From positions 38,678-102,677 of IMG/VR virus record IMGVR_UViG_3300035698_004130: a DNA stretch of 64,000 nt; one strand, 5' to 3'. The translations under genes were made by a program, and so were the position numbers. Positions 5,261 to 40,500 of the stretch are shown here, piece after piece. The stretch comes from a virus. Every line of letters starts with the position of its first letter. Within the stretch, counting starts at the first letter, position 1. The notes under the pieces are model-generated. The model ran no database searches and was not told the DNA's origin. It saw nothing but the letters and a program-made list of their open reading frames with translations.

Positions 5261-6296
5261 GGTCTGAGATAATATCTAGCCCCTTCTCTAAATCTTCCTG
5301 CGGAATTGTGGAGGCTTGCTCTTCCAAGTATTGGCGAATCATATCACCATGTATGGATTGAACCGGGATATTTGGGTCGAAATTTGAAATGCGGTTATCC
5401 AGCTTCTTATCAAAGATGGGTTGGAATTTAATATCCACATGCTTCACCTTGTATTCTTCTAGAATATTGTTTCTAGTGTCAGTTGAGCCTTCCTCAGTGA
5501 ACTTATCCATGAGGACTCGCAGGATAGTGAAGTATCTTGGATCTTGGATCTCCTCTTTCATCTGTTCTAAAGATTCAAAGGGACAAACATAGTATCTTGG
5601 TCCGAACTCTACAGCCTTCTTTACCAGAGGTGACCAAACCCCTGGGGATTCTTGTGTAATTGTTCCAGTGAAGTGATCGTAATCACACTCACCAAAATTA
5701 GTTGACCATGGTGTCCCTAGAACTAGGACATTACCATCATCCTTATATCGGTGAATGTGGCCCAGAATCGTTCTATTCTTAAACACACCTTTCTCAAATC
5801 CAAAATCCATAAACCCACCTGAGTTCATGCAACCTTGGTATCCAAAGTGTCCAAAGACTACTGTGTCCTTATCCTTTATGTAACAAAGACTTTCCTTGAT
5901 TGTAGCCTCATTCTCATAGTGAGGAATAAAGAGGAAGTTAAGGTCTTCATCAAACTGGGTCTGGCTGATGAGAGACACTTTACTCCCGGACCACTCTAGG
6001 GTTTCCAATGCGGTTAGCCCGTCATCAGATTTATTTGCGGAATCATGGTTCCCCCGCAAGATGAAAACCTTTGTTAGTCCGGGAGTAAGTGAAATTTTCT
6101 TGAAGAGTCTTGCCACCTTTACAATAACCTCCGGGTGAGGTTTCCTATGGTGGTAGATGTCCCCTAAGAATACGACGTATTTTGGCTTGCTGCTATCGAT
6201 TAGCTTCAAGCAGGTTTCTACTTGGTTATCCAAATACCCCTTAAAAGGGCTATCAAAATGGGTATCCCCAATAATGAGGCATTTGGAGTTACTCAT
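5235..6296 (-). CDS. 47: recombination nuclease subunit, SbcD/Mre11 family (T4 gp47-like)
   Basis: Metal-dependent phosphodiesterase partner of the gp46-like ATPase. The five motifs of the calcineurin-like fold are present in order: GDTHFD (10-15), GDIYHH near 45, RGNHDS near 100, GHFG and GHIHRY. Residues after about 250 form the capping domain. The 353-residue length matches T4 gp47. Gene order 47 then 46 is that of T4. The start overlaps the stop of the small membrane protein gene by four bases. Confidence 0.95.
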   Translation of the reverse strand: MSNSKCLIIGDTHFDSPFKGYLDNQVETCLKLIDSSKPKYVVFLGDIYHHRKPHPEVIVKVARLFKKISLTPGLTKVFILRGNHDSANKSDDGLTALETLEWSGSKVSLISQTQFDEDLNFLFIPHYENEATIKESLCYIKDKDTVVFGHFGYQGCMNSGGFMDFGFEKGVFKNRTILGHIHRYKDDGNVLVLGTPWSTNFGECDYDHFTGTITQESPGVWSPLVKKAVEFGPRYYVCPFESLEQMKEEIQDPRYFTILRVLMDKFTEEGSTDTRNNILEEYKVKHVDIKFQPIFDKKLDNRISNFDPNIPVQSIHGDMIRQYLEEQASTIPQEDLEKGLDIISDHENKTSEG

Positions 6297-6514
6297 CGGC
6301 GACGGCGATTGTTATTTGCAGACCCGATCCAGATACACAGGATGGTGATAAGAAGAATAGTGAGGATAATAACTAATGGTCCCCAAAGAGGTGCAGTAAT
6401 CCACCACCAACTCCAGGTGATGAACTCAGTAAGCTTGAGCACCAGGAACACAATGAAAAGCAGGAACATGGGTCCAACGCTTTCTACCTTAACAGTGCTA
6501 CTCACTTCAACCAC
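6293..6514 (-). CDS. small membrane protein with two transmembrane helices
   Basis: A 70-73 residue protein with two hydrophobic segments (about residues 16-35 and 45-65) and a basic C-terminal tail NNNRRRR, suggesting both ends face the cytoplasm. Two GTG starts are possible: 6514, or 6505, which forms a GTGA overlap with the upstream stop. Size and topology fit class II holins, but also many phage inner-membrane proteins, and it sits in a nucleotide/recombination operon with no lysin beside it. Function not assigned. Confidence 0.65.
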   Translation of the reverse strand: MVEVSSTVKVESVGPMFLLFIVFLVLKLTEFITWSWWWITAPLWGPLVIILTILLITILCIWIGSANNNRRRR

Positions 6515-6882
6515 CAGTGCTTTTCAGCATCCCCATCAAGTCCAATGTAAACTTCCATGCCTTCGGGACCGGAATGGAATGAAAGGATGTTCTTCCCATT
6601 TGGATTGGCCTCTAGACCACGGAAGGGAAGGTTATCCAACATCTTTTGAATGCAAGTAAGAACACCCTTACGACGGGAGAACTGCTCATTCATGCGACAC
6701 TTTGCCGAAAACATCGTTGAAGATACAGTATCAAAGATTACTGTATGCCCACCATGCTGCTTCATCTTACGCCCATTCTGTTCGAATTGTCTAAGATGCT
6801 TAACCTTTAGGTTAAGTGAGAATAGTTCATCCCCAGACTTATAGTCTAGGATTGTAACTCCAAAATCAGGTGCTTGGGCCAT
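6502..6882 (-). CDS. hypothetical protein
   Basis: A 126-residue soluble protein with alternating beta and helical stretches and no motif I recognise. It is tightly packed: its start shares bases with the preceding stop (around 6882) and its end overlaps the membrane protein gene by 13 bases. Codon use and spacing look like its neighbours, so the gene is probably real. Confidence 0.65.
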   Translation of the reverse strand: MAQAPDFGVTILDYKSGDELFSLNLKVKHLRQFEQNGRKMKQHGGHTVIFDTVSSTMFSAKCRMNEQFSRRKGVLTCIQKMLDNLPFRGLEANPNGKNILSFHSGPEGMEVYIGLDGDAEKHWWLK

Positions 6883-8198: not shown

Positions 8199-9131
8199 AT
8201 GATTGACATTGATGAACTAACCGTAGACGAATCCCTGGAACTTCTTGAGGGAATTACAAAGAAGCTTAATAAAATTAAGAAAGCAGGAGCCCAAAACTTC
8301 GGGGACCCAAAGATGGGAGATATGGTAAGCCAAGGCCAAAAGGAGATTAATAGAAATCCTAAGCCCGGATTTGGTGGGACTACCAAACGAAGGTCAGAAC
8401 ATAGACGTAAAAGAGGTGTGAAAAAGGCTCAGGAATCTCTTTTGAACTTTATCCAACAAGCTGTTAGTGAGGCTAATAAGGCTAACAAAGCTAAGAAAAG
8501 AAACTATGAGGGTAAGTCGGGTGCCGATATTATGTCCAAGGAGAAATTAGGAATTCATTCCTTGCCTGCTGGAACAAAAAAAAGAGCATTTGATGGCATG
8601 ATTAAATCCGATGCTAAGGGGGGAGGGACTAAAAATAGAATCCATCATGAGGCAGGAAGAAGGGCTGTTCACAGACAAAAAGCTCGCGAATCACTATTTG
8701 GAACAATCCATAACATGATTACCGAAGAGCAAGCAGATGACATTGAACAAGCCGGAGGTAGCCCTGAGGTTTTCAGAGCCACCAGAAAGGCCAAGCTCGC
8801 TCAAAGAGGTGTTCGTAAGTCTAAGCACATTTCCCGTAAGGATGCTTTAGGTAAGATGGGAGGAAGATATAAGAAAGATGGAACTCAAGCTGACAAGCAT
8901 ACTAAGTCAGGTGGAGAAAAGAACTTCTCGGATGATACCAAGAAGACTTCAGGTATTCCACTTAATCCAAAGGGTAAGCCTAAAAAGGGAAGATCAAGAG
9001 GAGACAAAGCTGACGTTAGAGGAAAGACTGTGAACACCTCACGTTCAACCGGAGAAGAAGGTCGTAAGGCTGATGCTAATGCAGACGCTTTCAGTGACCT
9101 AGTGGGTAACCTTAGCAAGAACAAACGCTAG
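8199..9131 (+). CDS. very basic repeat-motif protein, candidate internal head protein
   Basis: A 310-residue Lys/Arg/Gly-rich protein, probably largely disordered. Short amphipathic segments recur: ESLELLEGIT (11-20), KAQESLLNFI (76-85) and KARESLFGTI (161-170). The same KAxESL[L/F]xxI pattern occurs in the C-terminal tail of the prohead protease (KAHESLLQVI), and LLEGIT recurs in the capsid protein N-terminus. T4-like phages package basic internal proteins whose N-terminal targeting peptides are cut after Glu by the prohead protease, so a similar role is inferred. It is on the plus strand, divergent from thyX, and its stop overlaps the convergent polymerase stop (CTAG). Confidence 0.75.
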   Translation: MIDIDELTVDESLELLEGITKKLNKIKKAGAQNFGDPKMGDMVSQGQKEINRNPKPGFGGTTKRRSEHRRKRGVKKAQESLLNFIQQAVSEANKANKAKKRNYEGKSGADIMSKEKLGIHSLPAGTKKRAFDGMIKSDAKGGGTKNRIHHEAGRRAVHRQKARESLFGTIHNMITEEQADDIEQAGGSPEVFRATRKAKLAQRGVRKSKHISRKDALGKMGGRYKKDGTQADKHTKSGGEKNFSDDTKKTSGIPLNPKGKPKKGRSRGDKADVRGKTVNTSRSTGEEGRKADANADAFSDLVGNLSKNKR

Positions 9132-10228
9132 AGTTCAAACCTAACTCCATTACCGAAGGAACTGCCGACTTCAATATCAACTTCAAGGGGAGCCTTTAGT
9201 TCGATATTGAAGTTTTTTCGCATGTAGGTATAATTCCTAAGTTCATCAGACATGATTTGAACTGCTTCCCTAGTTTCTTCCTTGGGACACACAATTTCAA
9301 TGGAGTCGTGAACCGTCCCTACTACCTTTCCTCTAAATCCTCTATCCTTAAAAGTCTTCACAATGGATAGTAGACCACAAAGTAGGATATCATTAGCAGG
9401 AGATTGGATGGTAAAGTTCAGTCCCTGCCGGTAGGCTTCCCCCCTAATCTTCTTGAAAGGAGAATTAATGTTTGGAAGATTACGGTATCTACCAAAGATC
9501 GTCTTAGCATAAGCAAACTGCTCAACATACTCCTTAACCGTGTTCATATAGATTGGAACACCAGGGAAAGCTTCCATCCAACTATTGATGATCTCTTCAG
9601 CAGCAGCTTCTGAGATGTTTCTCTTAGCAGCTAGAGTGTATGCTGTTCCACCGTATACCGTAAGGAATGAAACTTCCTTTGCGATCTGCCGTTCTTCAGG
9701 GGTAATATCCTCAGGATCTTTCTTAAACGTAAGAGCAGCAGAGTAGGTATGAAGGTCCACTCCAGACTCAAAGGCTTTAATCATATTCCTTTCATTAGCT
9801 ACATGGGCTAGAACTCTAAGTTCCATTGCCTTCATGTCAACCGTAATGAAATCCCATCCAGTTGGAGCTACGATAAAGTCTCGGATGTTTACAGCAAGGT
9901 CTTTCTTCTCTCTAGGAAGAGTGTGGAAAGATACTCCAATCTTGGAAGCCTTTCCTCCACCCTTTCTAATGTTGGCACCAGAGTTTGATAATCTACCTGT
10001 TACCGTTCCATCAATGTTGTAGTTGGCGTAAATCCTACCATTTTTAGTATTCTCTAGGGATTGCTCCACTCCAACAATATAAGTGTTGTAAAGCTTTGAG
10101 AGTTTCTTAAACTCAGAAAACCTATCAAAGAATAGTTTAGCATCTTTCAACTTATCATCAGAGATAGTTCCCAAAACACTATTGGCGATATCAAGCTCTT
10201 CTTGCTTATTATACTTTTTCGCTGCCAC
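9128..10228 (-). CDS. family A DNA polymerase, palm and fingers (third of three split frames)
   Basis: Catalytic part of the replicative polymerase, 366 residues. Seen: the template region TVTGRLS (75-81), motif A DMKAMELRVLAH (D131, E136), motif B R180/K184/Y192 in RQIAKEVSFLTVYGG, and motif C HDS (H307, D308). There is no exonuclease domain; that lies in the two preceding frames. The start is GTG at 10228-10226 with a strong AGAGAGG five bases upstream, overlapping the middle frame by 20 bases. Homology is collinear across the boundary, so subunits probably assemble, unless a +1 frameshift fuses them. Confidence 0.92.
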   Translation of the reverse strand: MAAKKYNKQEELDIANSVLGTISDDKLKDAKLFFDRFSEFKKLSKLYNTYIVGVEQSLENTKNGRIYANYNIDGTVTGRLSNSGANIRKGGGKASKIGVSFHTLPREKKDLAVNIRDFIVAPTGWDFITVDMKAMELRVLAHVANERNMIKAFESGVDLHTYSAALTFKKDPEDITPEERQIAKEVSFLTVYGGTAYTLAAKRNISEAAAEEIINSWMEAFPGVPIYMNTVKEYVEQFAYAKTIFGRYRNLPNINSPFKKIRGEAYRQGLNFTIQSPANDILLCGLLSIVKTFKDRGFRGKVVGTVHDSIEIVCPKEETREAVQIMSDELRNYTYMRKNFNIELKAPLEVDIEVGSSFGNGVRFEL

Positions 10229-10745
10229 TGAAACCTCTCTTTACATATTCCTTATCAACAAGCTCTTTCATCTTCATTAAAGTTTCATCATTAGTTGCAG
10301 GCTGATCCTTTGTAGTGTAGGCGAATGGATACAGCCCAAATCCAGACTCGTCATTAACTTCCCACTCCTTATCCTTGTTCTTCCTTAAAGAGAATAGAAC
10401 TTGGCACAGTTGCTGGTTTGAGGCAAGGTTCGTCCCCTCAGGGATTCTGGGTGAGGACATTAGGTAACTCTCTACCTCTTGAATCTTCTGTGCCAGTTGA
10501 TCCTTAATCTCTGCCAGCTTATCCGTATCAATAAGCATTCCCTCAAACTCAATATCACGGAAGACTACCGAGAGAGGTGAGATCAAGTTTAGGTATAGAT
10601 TCTCCAGGTTCTTTTTCTGAATCTCTTCGATGAGCTTCGCATAGACCTTTACTGTGTAGTAAGTGTCCATAGCGTTACCCCGAAGGCAAGGCATCATCTC
10701 AATGTTTGCCCAGTCGAACTTGGTGTTGTTTTCAACGGTTAGCAT
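10209..10745 (-). CDS. family A DNA polymerase, exonuclease end and thumb (second of three split frames)
   Basis: A 178-residue middle piece. Residues 1-40 hold the end of the 3'-5' exonuclease with the motif III aspartate (AMD, D27). The remainder is the thumb region, including NLASNQQLCQVLF, which matches the NLxSPxQL element of family A polymerases. Its ATG overlaps the stop of the upstream frame (TAATG). It would be incomplete alone, as the exonuclease domain is cut between motifs II and III. Either it assembles with its neighbours or this is a recently broken gene; both junctions carry clean translation-coupling signals. Confidence 0.85.
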   Translation of the reverse strand: MLTVENNTKFDWANIEMMPCLRGNAMDTYYTVKVYAKLIEEIQKKNLENLYLNLISPLSVVFRDIEFEGMLIDTDKLAEIKDQLAQKIQEVESYLMSSPRIPEGTNLASNQQLCQVLFSLRKNKDKEWEVNDESGFGLYPFAYTTKDQPATNDETLMKMKELVDKEYVKRGFSGSEKV

Positions 10746-11797
10746 TACTTGATCTTATCCAGGGGGAAGTAGTAGTAAACTAGGTCTCTCAGACCCTTGG
10801 GAATACCTTCAAGGTAAAGATGTTGCATAAGCTTTGTATCCCACACATGTTTAACGTCTACCACTCCATACCGTAGCAGGAACTTCAAATCGAACGTTGC
10901 ATGTTGGAAGATCTTTCTATTATTGTCGTTTGCCAGGACTAAGGAAACGAACTCCATAATCTTTGCCTTAGTCTTATATGAGAACTTAGCTTCCCTATGA
11001 TCGATAGGCATTGCTACTGTCTTTGCAACAATGATGTTCCCACGCTTAAACTCATCCAAATCCAACATTGAGAAAGAGATGGTATGAAGTCTATGCTCTA
11101 GGAAGTTCAACCCTTCAGTCTCCACATCAACAGCAATGGGAGCTTTTGTGGTATAGAACTCCACATGCTTCTTAATATCCTCTTCGCTTTGAATAATATC
11201 AAAATCAATCGGAACTAGAACATCCTTCTCATTGATGATGCTGTTTACAGCATTCTCAACATCCTTGGAGAAGAGGTAAGCATTCTTTGGTTCAGATACT
11301 ACCTGCCATGGATGCATGACGGATACCAGACTAAAGGTGAAGCCATCCTCTAGTTGCATCTCCTTAGCTTTGCCTCTGACAGTAGTATCCTTCTTATTCT
11401 TACCGTAGAAAATAGTAGTAGCTAGTTTACCACATGCAAATACTAAAGTAGGCTTAAACTGTGCAATGGTGTCTTCCAAGTGAGCCATGCATTTCTTTCT
11501 AGAAATTGGGTCACTAGTGTCCATGGTCATTCCTGGGCACTTCATTGCAGTTGTGAATCCAACCCTATCTGTTGAAATGCCAAGCCTCCTAAGCTCAAGC
11601 TTGATGGCTCGATACTCATTTGGCCTGAAGGCTGTGTAAGAACCCTCATGCATTTTGGGAGCATCGGAGACAAATAAGATCTCTTTTGGTTCCTCGAATT
11701 CGTAGTCTAAAATTGTTCTACGGGGGAGAGGCTTCTTAAGTATAGGGCAACCCTCACACTTAGGATTCTCTTCGTTAAATAACTTATCTAGATCCAT
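10745..11797 (-). CDS. uracil-DNA-glycosylase-like domain fused to 3'-5' exonuclease N-part (first of three split polymerase frames)
   Basis: Residues 1-190 match the family 4 type uracil glycosylase domain that heads SPO1-type phage polymerases. Cysteines 14, 17, 87 and 103 fit a 4Fe-4S site, and MHPW is at 161-164. Residues 200-350 begin a DnaQ-like proofreading exonuclease with motif I DVETEG (D214, E216) and motif II FDLKF (D293). Motif III is in the next frame. In SPO1-like phages these domains and the polymerase are one chain. The start overlaps the HNH gene by 14 bases. Confidence 0.85.
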
Positions 11798-12266
11798 ACA
11801 CGTTTATTAAATCTCTTGCCCATTCCAATAAATCCTCTACTCTTTTCCCAGAAGGTTGGGAAGTAGACCATAACTCAAGATTGGATAAGGTATTATCATC
11901 CCTAATACCATTTTTATGGTGAACATTTTCATTTGGAAGTAATTTTCTTCCAAGATGCTGTTCCATAATAAATCTATGCTCAAGCATATTTTTTACCTTA
12001 CCATTGTCATTAACAGAAAATCTAACATACCCAGCACCAGTTAGATGCTTACCCTTACCAAAGTTTGGATGGGTAATTCCCTTGCGAAGTTTAAAGCACC
12101 CACAAGATTTCTTATTACCTGTGGTTATATGGGAGCCAATGGATTTGAAGGAATCCCCACAGTGACACTTGCACTCCCACACAGCTAGACTCTTCCCTTT
12201 AAAGGAAGAATCGTCTACGACTAAATACTTAATAAAAGTGATTCCATTAACAATTTTACCCACCAA
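11784..12266 (-). CDS. HNH homing endonuclease
   Basis: A free-standing HNH endonuclease of 160 residues. An N-terminal Cys-rich part (CKCHC, CGCF) may bind zinc. The nuclease core reads [12 protein letters not shown], then [12 protein letters not shown] and NLELWS, the usual HNH_3-type arrangement. A TTG start (12266) or the adjacent GTG (12263), which has AAGGA upstream, is used. It lies directly in front of the split polymerase, a typical place for a homing endonuclease that targets a polymerase gene. Confidence 0.9.
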
Positions 12267-12334: not shown

Positions 12335-12724
12335 ATGGACTTAAGAAGGAAGACTATAATAGACCCAATGAGTAACTACATTAATAACAAGAGATTCGAG
12401 GAGCTTATCCAAGAGCGCAAGGCAGGGGATAATACAAACGAAGAGGAGCTTTTCCAATTGTTTGATATGCTCATCGACCGACTAATGGTGACCTACAAAT
12501 TTAAGGTAGATCATGAAGAAGCGAAGCAGGAATGCTTTCTTCTAATCCTAAAGGTGCTAAACAACTTTAAGAAAGAATCAGGGGCAGCATTCAACTACTT
12601 CACTACAGTAATACTAAACAACTTCCGACTCCTCTATACGAAGAATAGAAAGTATGCTGAGAAGATTGAGGCTTACAGGAACATTAAACAAGGTGGCTAT
12701 TCATCTTCTTCAATGGATGAGTAG
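12335..12724 (+). CDS. 55: late-transcription sigma factor, T4 gp55-like
   Basis: A 129-residue sigma-70 region 2 type protein. The N-terminal NYINNKRFEELI resembles the YxNNKxL start of T4 gp55. The helical block around EAKQECFLLILKVL and FNYFTTVILNNFRLLY fits core binding and -10 recognition. T4 gp55 is about 185 residues, so this is a short version lacking much of the C-terminal part. It should direct host RNA polymerase to the late head and tail genes. An alternative ATG at MSNY (residue 12) is possible. The gene is isolated on the plus strand, and its end overlaps a convergent minus-strand gene. Confidence 0.8.
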   Translation: MDLRRKTIIDPMSNYINNKRFEELIQERKAGDNTNEEELFQLFDMLIDRLMVTYKFKVDHEEAKQECFLLILKVLNNFKKESGAAFNYFTTVILNNFRLLYTKNRKYAEKIEAYRNIKQGGYSSSSMDE

Positions 12725-13583: not shown

Positions 13584-13681
13584 TCTTCCTCTTGCGCGTT
13601 CGGATACTGAAACTCTTGAATCGTCCAGTTTTAGGTTTGTGCTTTCCATCGGCAGGCTATCATAGTCGTGACGATACCCAT

Positions 13682-37550: not shown

Positions 37551-40500
37551 TAGACTAATACCTCAACTTCATCAAGGGCGGCTGGGTAGCCAACGGATGC
37601 GAATGCTATTTGAACTCTACTATATGATTCTATAAATTGTCTGTAGTCTGCTCTTGAGCCATTAGTATCAGCGATTAGGTAGGGATGATCTGAATCATTT
37701 GCAACTCTCGATGCTTGCCCTCTAAGGGCTCCTGCTCCTCCAACGATTTTATTCCAGAACTTGAATATTCCTTGAACTTGGGATTTTGAAGTTGGAACAC
37801 GTATAGGGTAACAATCGTCAACTGCAATAACCTCTGAGCGTTGCTTGAGGGTTAAGTCCTGCATTTTGATTGAATCAAGAAGCATAAACTGTTTTGGTTT
37901 AGCTGAGTTCGGAATCATGAACAATTCTACAACATAGCTTTGATCCTTCCTGTGTAGTTGCCCAAAGGCTTTAAGATATTCGTTGTTTAAGATTTGTTGT
38001 CTATTATCTGTAGTGAAAGTAAACTTTAGATTTTGGAAGTCAGCTTCCTTGATTCCCACAATTGGGGAAGAGGATAGAACAGTATTGTTAGCAAGGTAAA
38101 TACATTCAAATGTAGTTGCTTCCTCCTCAAGCTCTTCTTGGGTCTTCTCTCTTAGTGGAAGGTGGAATAGAGTTGAGTAGCTTACTACTTCATCCTGCTT
38201 TATAATTGCAGGGTGTTGGACCCAAAATCCATCTTGGTTGAGACTCCACATCCTACCCAGTTCAGGCTTAGTGTGAACCCAGACTCCAATGGTTCTATCC
38301 CCAAACTTCTGGCCCTTGAGTTCTGTAACTAGTAACTTAGCATCAACCTCAAACTTATGTTCGGGCAGTAGGAAGTTCTCAGTGATTGGGTAAGAAGCAG
38401 GGGAAGAGTGCTTCTTCATGTCCATTCTAATTCTACCAAACCCATCTAGTGATCTATTCTGGATGAAGGTTCGATTATACATGTAGTCGTCATCGGTTGA
38501 GGACTTTCCTACAGGATCAATCTTAAACACTTGGAATCCATTATCCTCCGAGATACCGGAAGTTTGGATAAGCTCAACAGCATCAATAATACCTGAGTTA
38601 ACATACTCAAAGGTGTCAACATACATGTCATCGCTACTACTAGCAATATACACTCCGGCACTACTAGCTTGGAATCCATTTTTATTATTTAGATTATCCA
38701 AGGCAGATAGAGATGCAGTTACAAACCCTGCCGCACCTAGAGTATCAAACTCACTGTTATACAGGAGAGGCCCAAAGGTGTGAGAGTAAATGTTAGCACC
38801 ATCCTGGTAGTGCATATGATCGGATAATTGATGCCTAGCAAAATGGGTTGTGTAGTCCTTGTAGAAGAGATGGAATTCCTTCCCAAACCCAAAGTTATAG
38901 AAATCGTTGACGCTTTCCGGGAACCATCCGTCAGACTCTGTAGCAGAGTTTGCGTATGCTTGATACACATTTCTAACCTCTAGGGCTTCAGTTGTTGCTG
39001 ATCCATAAGCAGCAGAAGCTTCCCAATACTTTATGTCTTCCTTTAGAGAGTGAATGATAGCATAGAATTCTGGTAGCTGGCATCTATCATTGTGCCAATC
39101 AACAAGACCTAAACCTGTGTGCCCTCTTCCTATAAGAGCATCGCTAACTGTGTAGCCGTAGAAGGTTGAGCTAGAGTTGATACCCTGGCACACTGAGTAT
39201 ACCGCAGGTAAGTTAACATGGTCTGGAATGCTTTCAAAGCTTAGTGAGCTAGGAATGAATCCCAAAGGAATCCCACTCAAGCCTGAAAGCATGTAGTGGG
39301 ATGTAGGCATGTTAAACCCTGTCCTATCGTAATAGCCATTCTTGGGAGCTAGCTTCTCATAGGATCTTCTTCTTAGGGAATATCTACTTAGGTTTGAAGC
39401 ATTATTTGAGGCGTTGGTGTATAGAGGATCCATACGGCTAACCAAGTCCTTACGGGAGAAGGATCCTGCTGCCCCACCTAAACCTCTTTTGAATGAGGAA
39501 ATACTAATTCCAGAAGTGATCCAGTTCCTACAGTAAGATCCACCGTCAGCTTCGTCAACTGATGGCATAACCATGGGCATGGCCGAAGATTGGAAATTAA
39601 TGTAGTCTACTGTTGATAGGGTTAGACTAACTAAGGGAATTGAGTGAGCCGGAACAAAGGAATTTAATACCTTGGAAGCCAGCACGACTGCATCCCCAGA
39701 ATCAATATCGTCTGAGTTCTTCTTGGTGAAATCAAACTCGGAAGCATCAAATACTAACTTGAAGTGAGACGACTTACCCGACCATAGGGAAGCATACTCA
39801 AAGTTCTTGTTATTAAGGTTTAGGATAAGGTTGTTTAGGTTTGGTGGACTGTTATACCCAGAAGTGAATAGCAACCAACTTGAAGTTCGGGGTTCTTCAT
39901 CAACCTCCAAAGCATTGGTTGTTACGAAATCTTTAAACTGAAAAGCAAACAATTGGTTGACTCCAAAACATACAAGTCTATCTGTGATGAAATCAAGCAT
40001 CTCCTTCGTCATTTCAACATTGACGTAGTATGGATATTCTTCGAAGGGAGGGATAGGATAAACCTTTCCTCTGTAGCGGAAACCGTCTTCTTGGTTAGGG
40101 ATATTGAATGCTTCCGGGAACTTCAGGAAAGTCTCGTAAAGGATTCTATCCGTAGCGTGCTTAACATTATCATCCATGCTGGATGCAGAGTAGCCAACCA
40201 CATTCATATATGCTGCAATATCTGGATACCAGTTCTGGAAGGATTCAAAGTAGACTGATTCTGTAGCTAGTGAGTAGTGAATCAGGAATGGAATGTAGGA
40301 TTCCCATAACTCTGTGATACGAGACTCAATACTGAAGATATCCTTGGGGAACACAGTATTAAGTGCGAATTGAACAGACTGCTTAGTTCCAACCTTCTTG
40401 TAAACTTCTACAGCATTCTTAAGTTGTAATCTCCATCTTTCTGGGTTAGATCCAAACAGATCCCATCCGATCAGATCCGCTAGAAGAGGTAGGAACTCGT

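Follow-up and report, generated by a model that had tools for sequence, protein, structure and literature searches.

On the minus strand of a 64,000-nucleotide (nt) stretch of the virus record IMGVR_UViG_3300035698_004130 (positions 38,678 to 102,677 of that record; hereafter the window), a uracil-DNA glycosylase (UDG) domain, a 3'-5' exonuclease and a family A polymerase are encoded by three collinear open reading frames (ORFs; 11797-9128), whose products we call A, B and C. From the gene layout, the conservation, the purifying selection and the independent placement of A, we infer that the three proteins are very probably translated separately and assemble into one active, replicative family A DNA polymerase, a reading that also draws on structure models. 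Membership of family A is indicated by a palm and fingers region bearing motifs A, B and C, and by the Klenow-type fold of a joined B+C model. The single chain expected of such an enzyme is absent; the window, like all 143 related sets, has three ORFs in its place. An original prediction, made from the letters of the window, had assigned the UDG domain with exonuclease motifs I and II, motif III with the thumb, and the palm and fingers to three collinear frames, and ORF and Pfam analysis confirms this division (Table 1).

Relatives with the same breaks, for which a search had been proposed, proved to be numerous. We surveyed 338 loci drawn from scans of viral contigs, one scan of genome contigs, phage records and the window's own record (102,677 bases, possibly counted twice among the sets as L001 and L109). 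The loci were sorted with A, B and C hidden Markov models (HMMs) built from 11 diverse members, whose lowest identity to the window is 45% in C, 29% in B and 35% in A. After removal of repeats, 143 A|B|C sets in three frames were found in viral contigs, every one collinear on one strand; distinctness here refers to the sequence of B together with the start of A and takes no account of lineage or sampling site. With 143 distinct homologous sets sharing the same two breaks, the split is not a matter of chance; indeed, it is fixed in its lineage. The expectation that a three-way break would be unusual thus holds in part: the division is real, with one break inside the exonuclease domain, but within the group it is not unusual, since it is fixed there.

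Other arrangements are fewer. In nine loci, A is separate and B and C share one frame; seven of these (L292, L293, L295, L296, L297, L299 and L300) make up a two-part sister group; of the other two, L187 is a close relative of three-part forms, and the gene of L327, with its overlapping frames, is unrelated. One-frame forms number 22 (15 contigs and 7 phage-collection records). In phage SP8 (L106), C is set apart by an interruption at 5756-6600 containing a gene annotated as an HNH homing endonuclease; related phages are known to have a group I intron at this place. Outside these sets, 21 loci have A only, 6 have C only, 6 have B and C, 4 have A and B, 17 have A and C in one frame but no score for B, and L335 has A and C in separate frames. 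Two candidates for further split forms were rejected: L327, whose two overlapping frames belong to a single exonuclease, and L335, where the break lies inside the palm.

The domain content of each piece is recognizable. Protein A matches the UDG family PF03167 (E 1.1e-6) and the exonuclease family PF01612 (profile 3-129 of 173). Its PDB profile matches are solved uracil-DNA glycosylases, and the UDG-superfamily match together with four cysteines has the sequence character of a family 4/5 enzyme. These cysteines (Cys 14, 17, 87 and 103), which we take to be Fe-S cluster ligands, are unchanged in all aligned copies (132/132 to 134/134). Protein B gives a weak match to PF00476 (E 0.0067, profile 2-69), and C matches the same family over profile positions 58-380 of 381. 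In C, we assign D131 to motif A, R180, K184 and Y192 to motif B, and H307 and D308 to motif C. No intein domain was found in A, B or C by Pfam, and the pieces have no long extra ends; a search for intron RNA with Rfam gave no match of any kind in the window or in five relatives.

Table 1. Features of the split polymerase locus, in window positions
Feature	Position	Strand	Basis or placement
Protein A, 350 aa: UDG-superfamily domain (four conserved Cys), Exo I D224/E226, Exo II D303	10745..11797	-	ORF, Pfam
Break 1, TAATG: A stop overlaps B start	10743..10747	-	Between Exo II and Exo III, near Klenow residue 470
Protein B, 178 aa: Exo III D27 (Gly at 23, not Tyr), first part of thumb	10209..10745	-	ORF, profile
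Break 2, 20-nt B/C overlap, C start is GTG	10209..10228	-	In thumb, between Klenow 592 and 627
Protein C, 366 aa, GTG start: remaining thumb, palm, fingers	9128..10228	-	PF00476, 243.6 bits
GAGAGG, ribosome-binding-like, five bases before GTG of C	10234..10239	-	Sequence
HNH endonuclease gene (160 aa, begins with TTG), inserted upstream of A, whose start it overlaps	11784..12266	-	PF13392

Structure models place the breaks. The joined B+C model (predicted local distance difference test (pLDDT) 88.6, predicted template modelling score (pTM) 0.83) has a single stretch below 50, namely the junction at residues 174-183, and superposes on residues 470-928 of Klenow (1kfs) with Z 37.8 and a root-mean-square deviation (rmsd) of 3.7 over 446 residues. 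Since the model begins at Klenow 470, break 1 lies near that residue, between Exo II (Asp424) and Exo III (Asp501). Profile alignments, with Klenow numbering counted from 324, place B on 482-592 and C from 627 onwards, so that break 2 falls in the thumb between 592 and 627. For the exonuclease we modelled, as one chain, the A and B of L091, between which there is a single stop (pLDDT 89.3, pTM 0.59); residues 196-414 superpose on 324-545 of 1kln (Z 21.1, rmsd 2.4, 210 residues), with the break at 344. In the model, then, the A and B halves, once joined in one chain, do complete an exonuclease fold.

All four metal-binding acids of a DEDDy exonuclease are present, three in A and one in B, and are kept in every aligned copy, the rest being gaps (D224 139/139, E226 139/139, D303 143/143 and D27 143/143). 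The polymerase residues are equally constant (D131 142/142, R180 141/141, K184 141/141, Y192 140/140, H307 and D308 134/134; again the rest are gaps). Ratios of nonsynonymous to synonymous change (dN/dS), taken from pairs with moderate synonymous distance, have medians of 0.059 for A (32 pairs), 0.037 for B (74) and 0.033 for C (77); the highest value for B is one pair at 0.66. Thus, A, B and C look like functional genes under purifying selection, and the argument against decay, first made from motif conservation, is upheld by invariant exonuclease and polymerase residues and by dN/dS medians of 0.03-0.06. That the split is a product of assembly errors or of a decayed gene we regard as next to impossible. 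Single contigs can have such a look, as in L145 with its broken B or L327 with its one exonuclease in two overlapping frames; against this, the same two breaks recur in 143 distinct sets, the catalytic residues do not vary, and every dN/dS median is below 0.07. In L145, B is interrupted by a frame change at L145:5584-5871, within a 67-kb contig.

The TAATG junction and the GTG start with its upstream ribosome-binding-like sequence, both named in the original prediction, are present in the window, and the junctions of relatives are informative as to how the pieces are translated. Distances were taken in 96 sets, a subset of the 143, with A|B spacing from the 93 in which both ends are known. The start of B lies within 3 nt of the A stop or overlaps it in 76 of 93, 67 of which overlap by one base (the TAATG type), whereas in the remaining 17 the genes are separated by 42 to 1038 nt; the full range is -19 to +1038 nt. 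B begins with ATG in 91 of 96 sets and GTG in 4, and its start occupies the same alignment position in 46 listed members, the exception being L130. B and C overlap in 85 of 86 measured pairs. A Shine-Dalgarno (SD)-like 4-mer precedes C in 70 of 86 relatives, compared with 64 of 430 random positions.

The sequences found between A and B are diverse: an HNH gene in L007, a glycosyltransferase-like gene in L156, a small Cys-rich ORF in L093, and opposite-strand ORFs in L131, L132, L135, L138, L144-L147, L176 and L182. In the two-gene form L292, a glutamine-synthetase-like gene, ThyX and a 659-aa ORF separate A from B+C (L292:6902-10625; ~3.7 kb). Glutamine-synthetase-like and/or ThyX genes also lie between A and the fused B+C at L293:6770-7444 and L296:6751-7728. 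Additionally, a 91-aa hydrophobic ORF sits exactly between A and B in L134, L148, L162, L164, L168 and L187, which form one subgroup; the L148 copy, when searched, gave no Pfam match.

The frames could in principle be fused into one protein by programmed frameshifting or stop-codon bypass, and a +1 frameshift had been suggested. In 82 of 99 sets the offset from B to C is indeed +1, and the overlap in all but one of the measured pairs would suit such a mechanism. A programmed frameshift would be expected to conserve the offset between the pieces, but offsets and spacings vary: the offset is +2 in 16 sets and 0 in one (L145, where B is disrupted), L093 has no B/C overlap at all, A|B spacing spans more than a kilobase, an HNH gene or opposite-strand ORFs occur in some of the A|B spacers, and B retains a start codon of its own. 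We therefore consider fusion highly improbable. On this comparison of sequences, A, B and C are three separate proteins, with sequencing error, decay and a conserved frameshift ruled out by the variable A|B spacing and by the opposite-strand genes in the spacer.

Transcription of A may likewise be its own. A promoter-like motif, [AT][AT]NATAG, occurs within 20 nt before the A start in 85 of 93 sets as against 9 of 1720 control windows, mostly 0-4 nt away, while an SD-like 4-mer is absent before A in 93 of 93. Of the 9 sets whose A and B are parted by opposite-strand ORFs, 7 have the same motif before B (L131, L132, L135, L144, L147, L176 and L182), compared with 1 of 76 coupled sets. The motif was chosen by eye on these same sequences, so the counts are post hoc and descriptive rather than a test. 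The closeness of the motif to the start and the lack of an SD-like 4-mer before A suggest that the transcripts of A, and of B where it is separated, are leaderless. The A gene of the window has no such motif, since the HNH gene occupies that place. Elsewhere in the window, [AT][AT]NATAG lies 6-7 nt before genes starting at 13649 (-), 59586 (-) and 59618 (+).

One residue sets the split forms apart. The fourth acid of the exonuclease lies in a GNxxD sequence in place of the expected YxxxD (window B residues 23-27, minus strand 10679-10665), so that the predicted conservation of exonuclease residues extends to the Exo III aspartate but not to the tyrosine four residues before it (Tyr497 of Klenow). 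Glycine stands there in 143/143 three-part sets, in 7/7 two-part members and in L187, whereas tyrosine stands there in 15/15 resolvable one-chain relatives (6 of 21 one-chain or intron-interrupted rows did not resolve). Among phage relatives of the one-chain type, L103, L104 and L105 have the tyrosine, and L101 did not resolve. According to an excerpt of PMC9629493, Tyr497 and Phe473 of Klenow help to position the substrate, while Asp355, Asp424 and Asp501 hold the metals; break 1 falls beside Phe473. Proofreading may, as we infer from these sequences, be altered through the loss of the Exo III tyrosine.

This loss also raises the alternative that B and C form the polymerase while A works alone on uracil or other bases, the exonuclease being inactive. 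The glycine, common to all split forms, would fit, as would the L292 arrangement, in which other genes keep A 3.7 kb away from B+C. Nevertheless, no aligned copy has lost any of the four exonuclease carboxylates that A and B share between them, and purifying selection acts on A; we judge a solitary A to be unlikely.

In the three-chain polymerase that we favor, the UDG-like domain would come from A, the two halves of the 3'-5' exonuclease from A and B, the base of the thumb from B and the polymerase core from C. A site for proofreading would form only at the A-B contact, and the thumb only at the B-C contact. TAATG would couple the translation of A and B, and C would be re-initiated at its own ribosome-binding site. 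Several points weigh against such an assembly. All of the evidence comes from metagenomic contigs with the exception of one single-cell-genome contig. The models are of joined chains and are no test of assembly in trans, and the pTM of the A+B model is just 0.59. Furthermore, with glycine replacing the Exo III tyrosine in all split forms, the exonuclease may be weak or repurposed.

Phylogenetic analysis bears on the history of the breaks. In trees of C alone and of A+B+C, the split forms all lie on one side of the branch from the one-chain forms (support 99 and 100, starred), and the two-part members form one group in both (support 100, starred). Support for the three-part group is 19 with C alone and 77 with A+B+C. 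The C tree has rows for 36 three-part sets, 6 of the 7 two-part members and 18 one-chain forms, and the A+B+C tree for 30, 5 and 6; the MAFFT row sets were chosen by trial runs until both halves aligned, a first mix of B and C rows having misplaced the B rows and been discarded. It seems probable that the split descended from a one-chain enzyme. Both split forms share break 1; break 2 was either added afterwards or closed again in the two-gene lineage, and with support of 19 and 77 the trees are compatible with 'two-gene first' as well as with 're-fusion of B and C'. Fusion of B and C can happen, as L187 demonstrates: at L187:7286-8131 (the same contig as L277) they are naturally fused, a small length difference having deleted the B stop. 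L187, a close relative of L162 and L166, is one contig that ends inside C.

The HNH gene had been proposed as the driver of the split. It lies first in the order HNH, A, B, C, upstream of A and at neither break, rather than at a break as in a homing-endonuclease split, and 76 of 93 A|B junctions are too tight to accommodate an insert; the proposal is therefore not supported. As to origin rather than function, an HNH homing endonuclease could have made break 1, leaving the genes in pieces, with the insert later lost in most lines. HNH genes do lie in break 1 of two of the gap loci examined, exactly so in L007 and as an HNH-like piece cut by the contig end in L086, the window HNH being 40% identical to that of L007, and the same route is described for nrdA of phage Aeh1 (excerpt of PMC2988022). 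With most A|B junctions free of an insert, other inserts being unrelated genes and the HNH gene of the window at neither break, we regard this origin as possible but doubtful. From their distribution, related HNH genes are better described as colonisers of break 1 elsewhere.

Besides the polymerase, the window record encodes a contractile-tail module, a T4-type major head protein, ribonucleotide reductase, SbcCD-like proteins, a primase and a helicase. A single PF00476 match was obtained in every one of 11 records, and no family B or PolIII alpha polymerase matched in any of them, although these records are without a completeness estimate and the absence is not proof. The head protein is 49-69% identical in 10 of 10 records searched, including the two-part G010; among cultured phages the best match, at 28.8%, is to a Klebsiella phage, one of many T4-like phages matched. 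In this widespread and diverse lineage of uncultured myoviruses, whose capsid is of the T4 type, the three-part split is fixed.

A candidate host link comes from L188 (QCKN01000003.1) and L146, a three-gene polymerase on a 130,604-base contig of a Prochlorococcus single-cell genome. psbA-type genes (PF00124), sought as a sign of a cyanobacterial host, were found in 0 of 8 long records. Divergent from A, a 129-aa ORF (12335-12724, plus strand) has a weak sigma-70 region 2 score (E 0.033) and is conserved beside A in relatives at 62-72%.

The same domain order, recognized by the A, B and C HMMs, is found in SPO1-like, Samunavirus and similar phages (LysYB1, SM1, JP1, RcTiptonus), but there as one chain of ~890-970 aa. 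Split replicases are already known in phages; those that we found in print are two-part, of other families or broken elsewhere. Of the papers cited below only excerpts are covered, and what we draw from them is limited to those excerpts. OM43 phages MEP401/402 make a family A polymerase from two genes with a small ORF between (PMC10580990), but by our own analysis the break lies in the palm after the TGR motif and the exonuclease is whole in one chain; our A, B and C HMMs give it low scores only. The family B gp43 is split in Aeromonas phages 25 and 44RR, and the phage 25 pieces co-purify and are active (PMC2988022). That enzyme is likewise a replicative polymerase in separate chains, though of another family, in two parts and with an endonuclease or untranslated spacer at the break. 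In the same source, nrdA of Aeh1, split by mobE, is likewise an essential enzyme divided at an HNH-associated place, but it is another enzyme, in two parts, with the endonuclease still at the break. Phage MIJ3 has a PolB split with a split intein, and jumbo phages have a split PolIII alpha (PMC6892783, PMC7824862); these too are replicases in pieces, but of other families, and the MIJ3 pieces carry intein sequence whereas A, B and C carry none.

Phage RM378, drawn upon earlier as a parallel, is reported to have an exonuclease gene apart from the polymerase core, but Rm378p024, annotated 'DNA polymerase', proves to be a family B exonuclease domain (PF03104) and so belongs to another family; the genome record was covered over its first 50 kb, and the A HMM gave nothing significant among the matches listed. 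Excerpts of the Far-T4 paper (PMC4360716) list DNA polymerases without the word 'split', and those of PMC6302109, PMC9069017 and PMC11348598 contain no split-polymerase passage. No three-way split family A polymerase was found in the open-access literature, which does not show that none is in print. Taken together, the original prediction keeps its core, a real three-way split with a break inside the exonuclease domain and no decay, and loses the frameshift, the HNH driver, the RM378 parallel and the rarity within the group.

Our findings have several consequences. Annotation that seeks one PolA gene would misread such genomes, and the natural breaks are guides for dividing a polymerase into working parts. 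They also raise the questions of an exonuclease site rebuilt from two chains, of proofreading regulated via subunit supply, and of the loss of a tyrosine accompanying the split. It is tempting to speculate, if only as a long shot, that this is a modular three-subunit replicase with proofreading as an add-on, in which A, having its own promoter and being mobile in the genome, docks on B and completes the Tyr-less exonuclease. If so, fidelity and the attached UDG-like activity would be tunable by the amount of A rather than fixed in one chain. What is new here is a three-way split through an exonuclease active site, fixed across a lineage: a rare enzyme design, of which the one-chain and two-gene relatives record intermediate steps.

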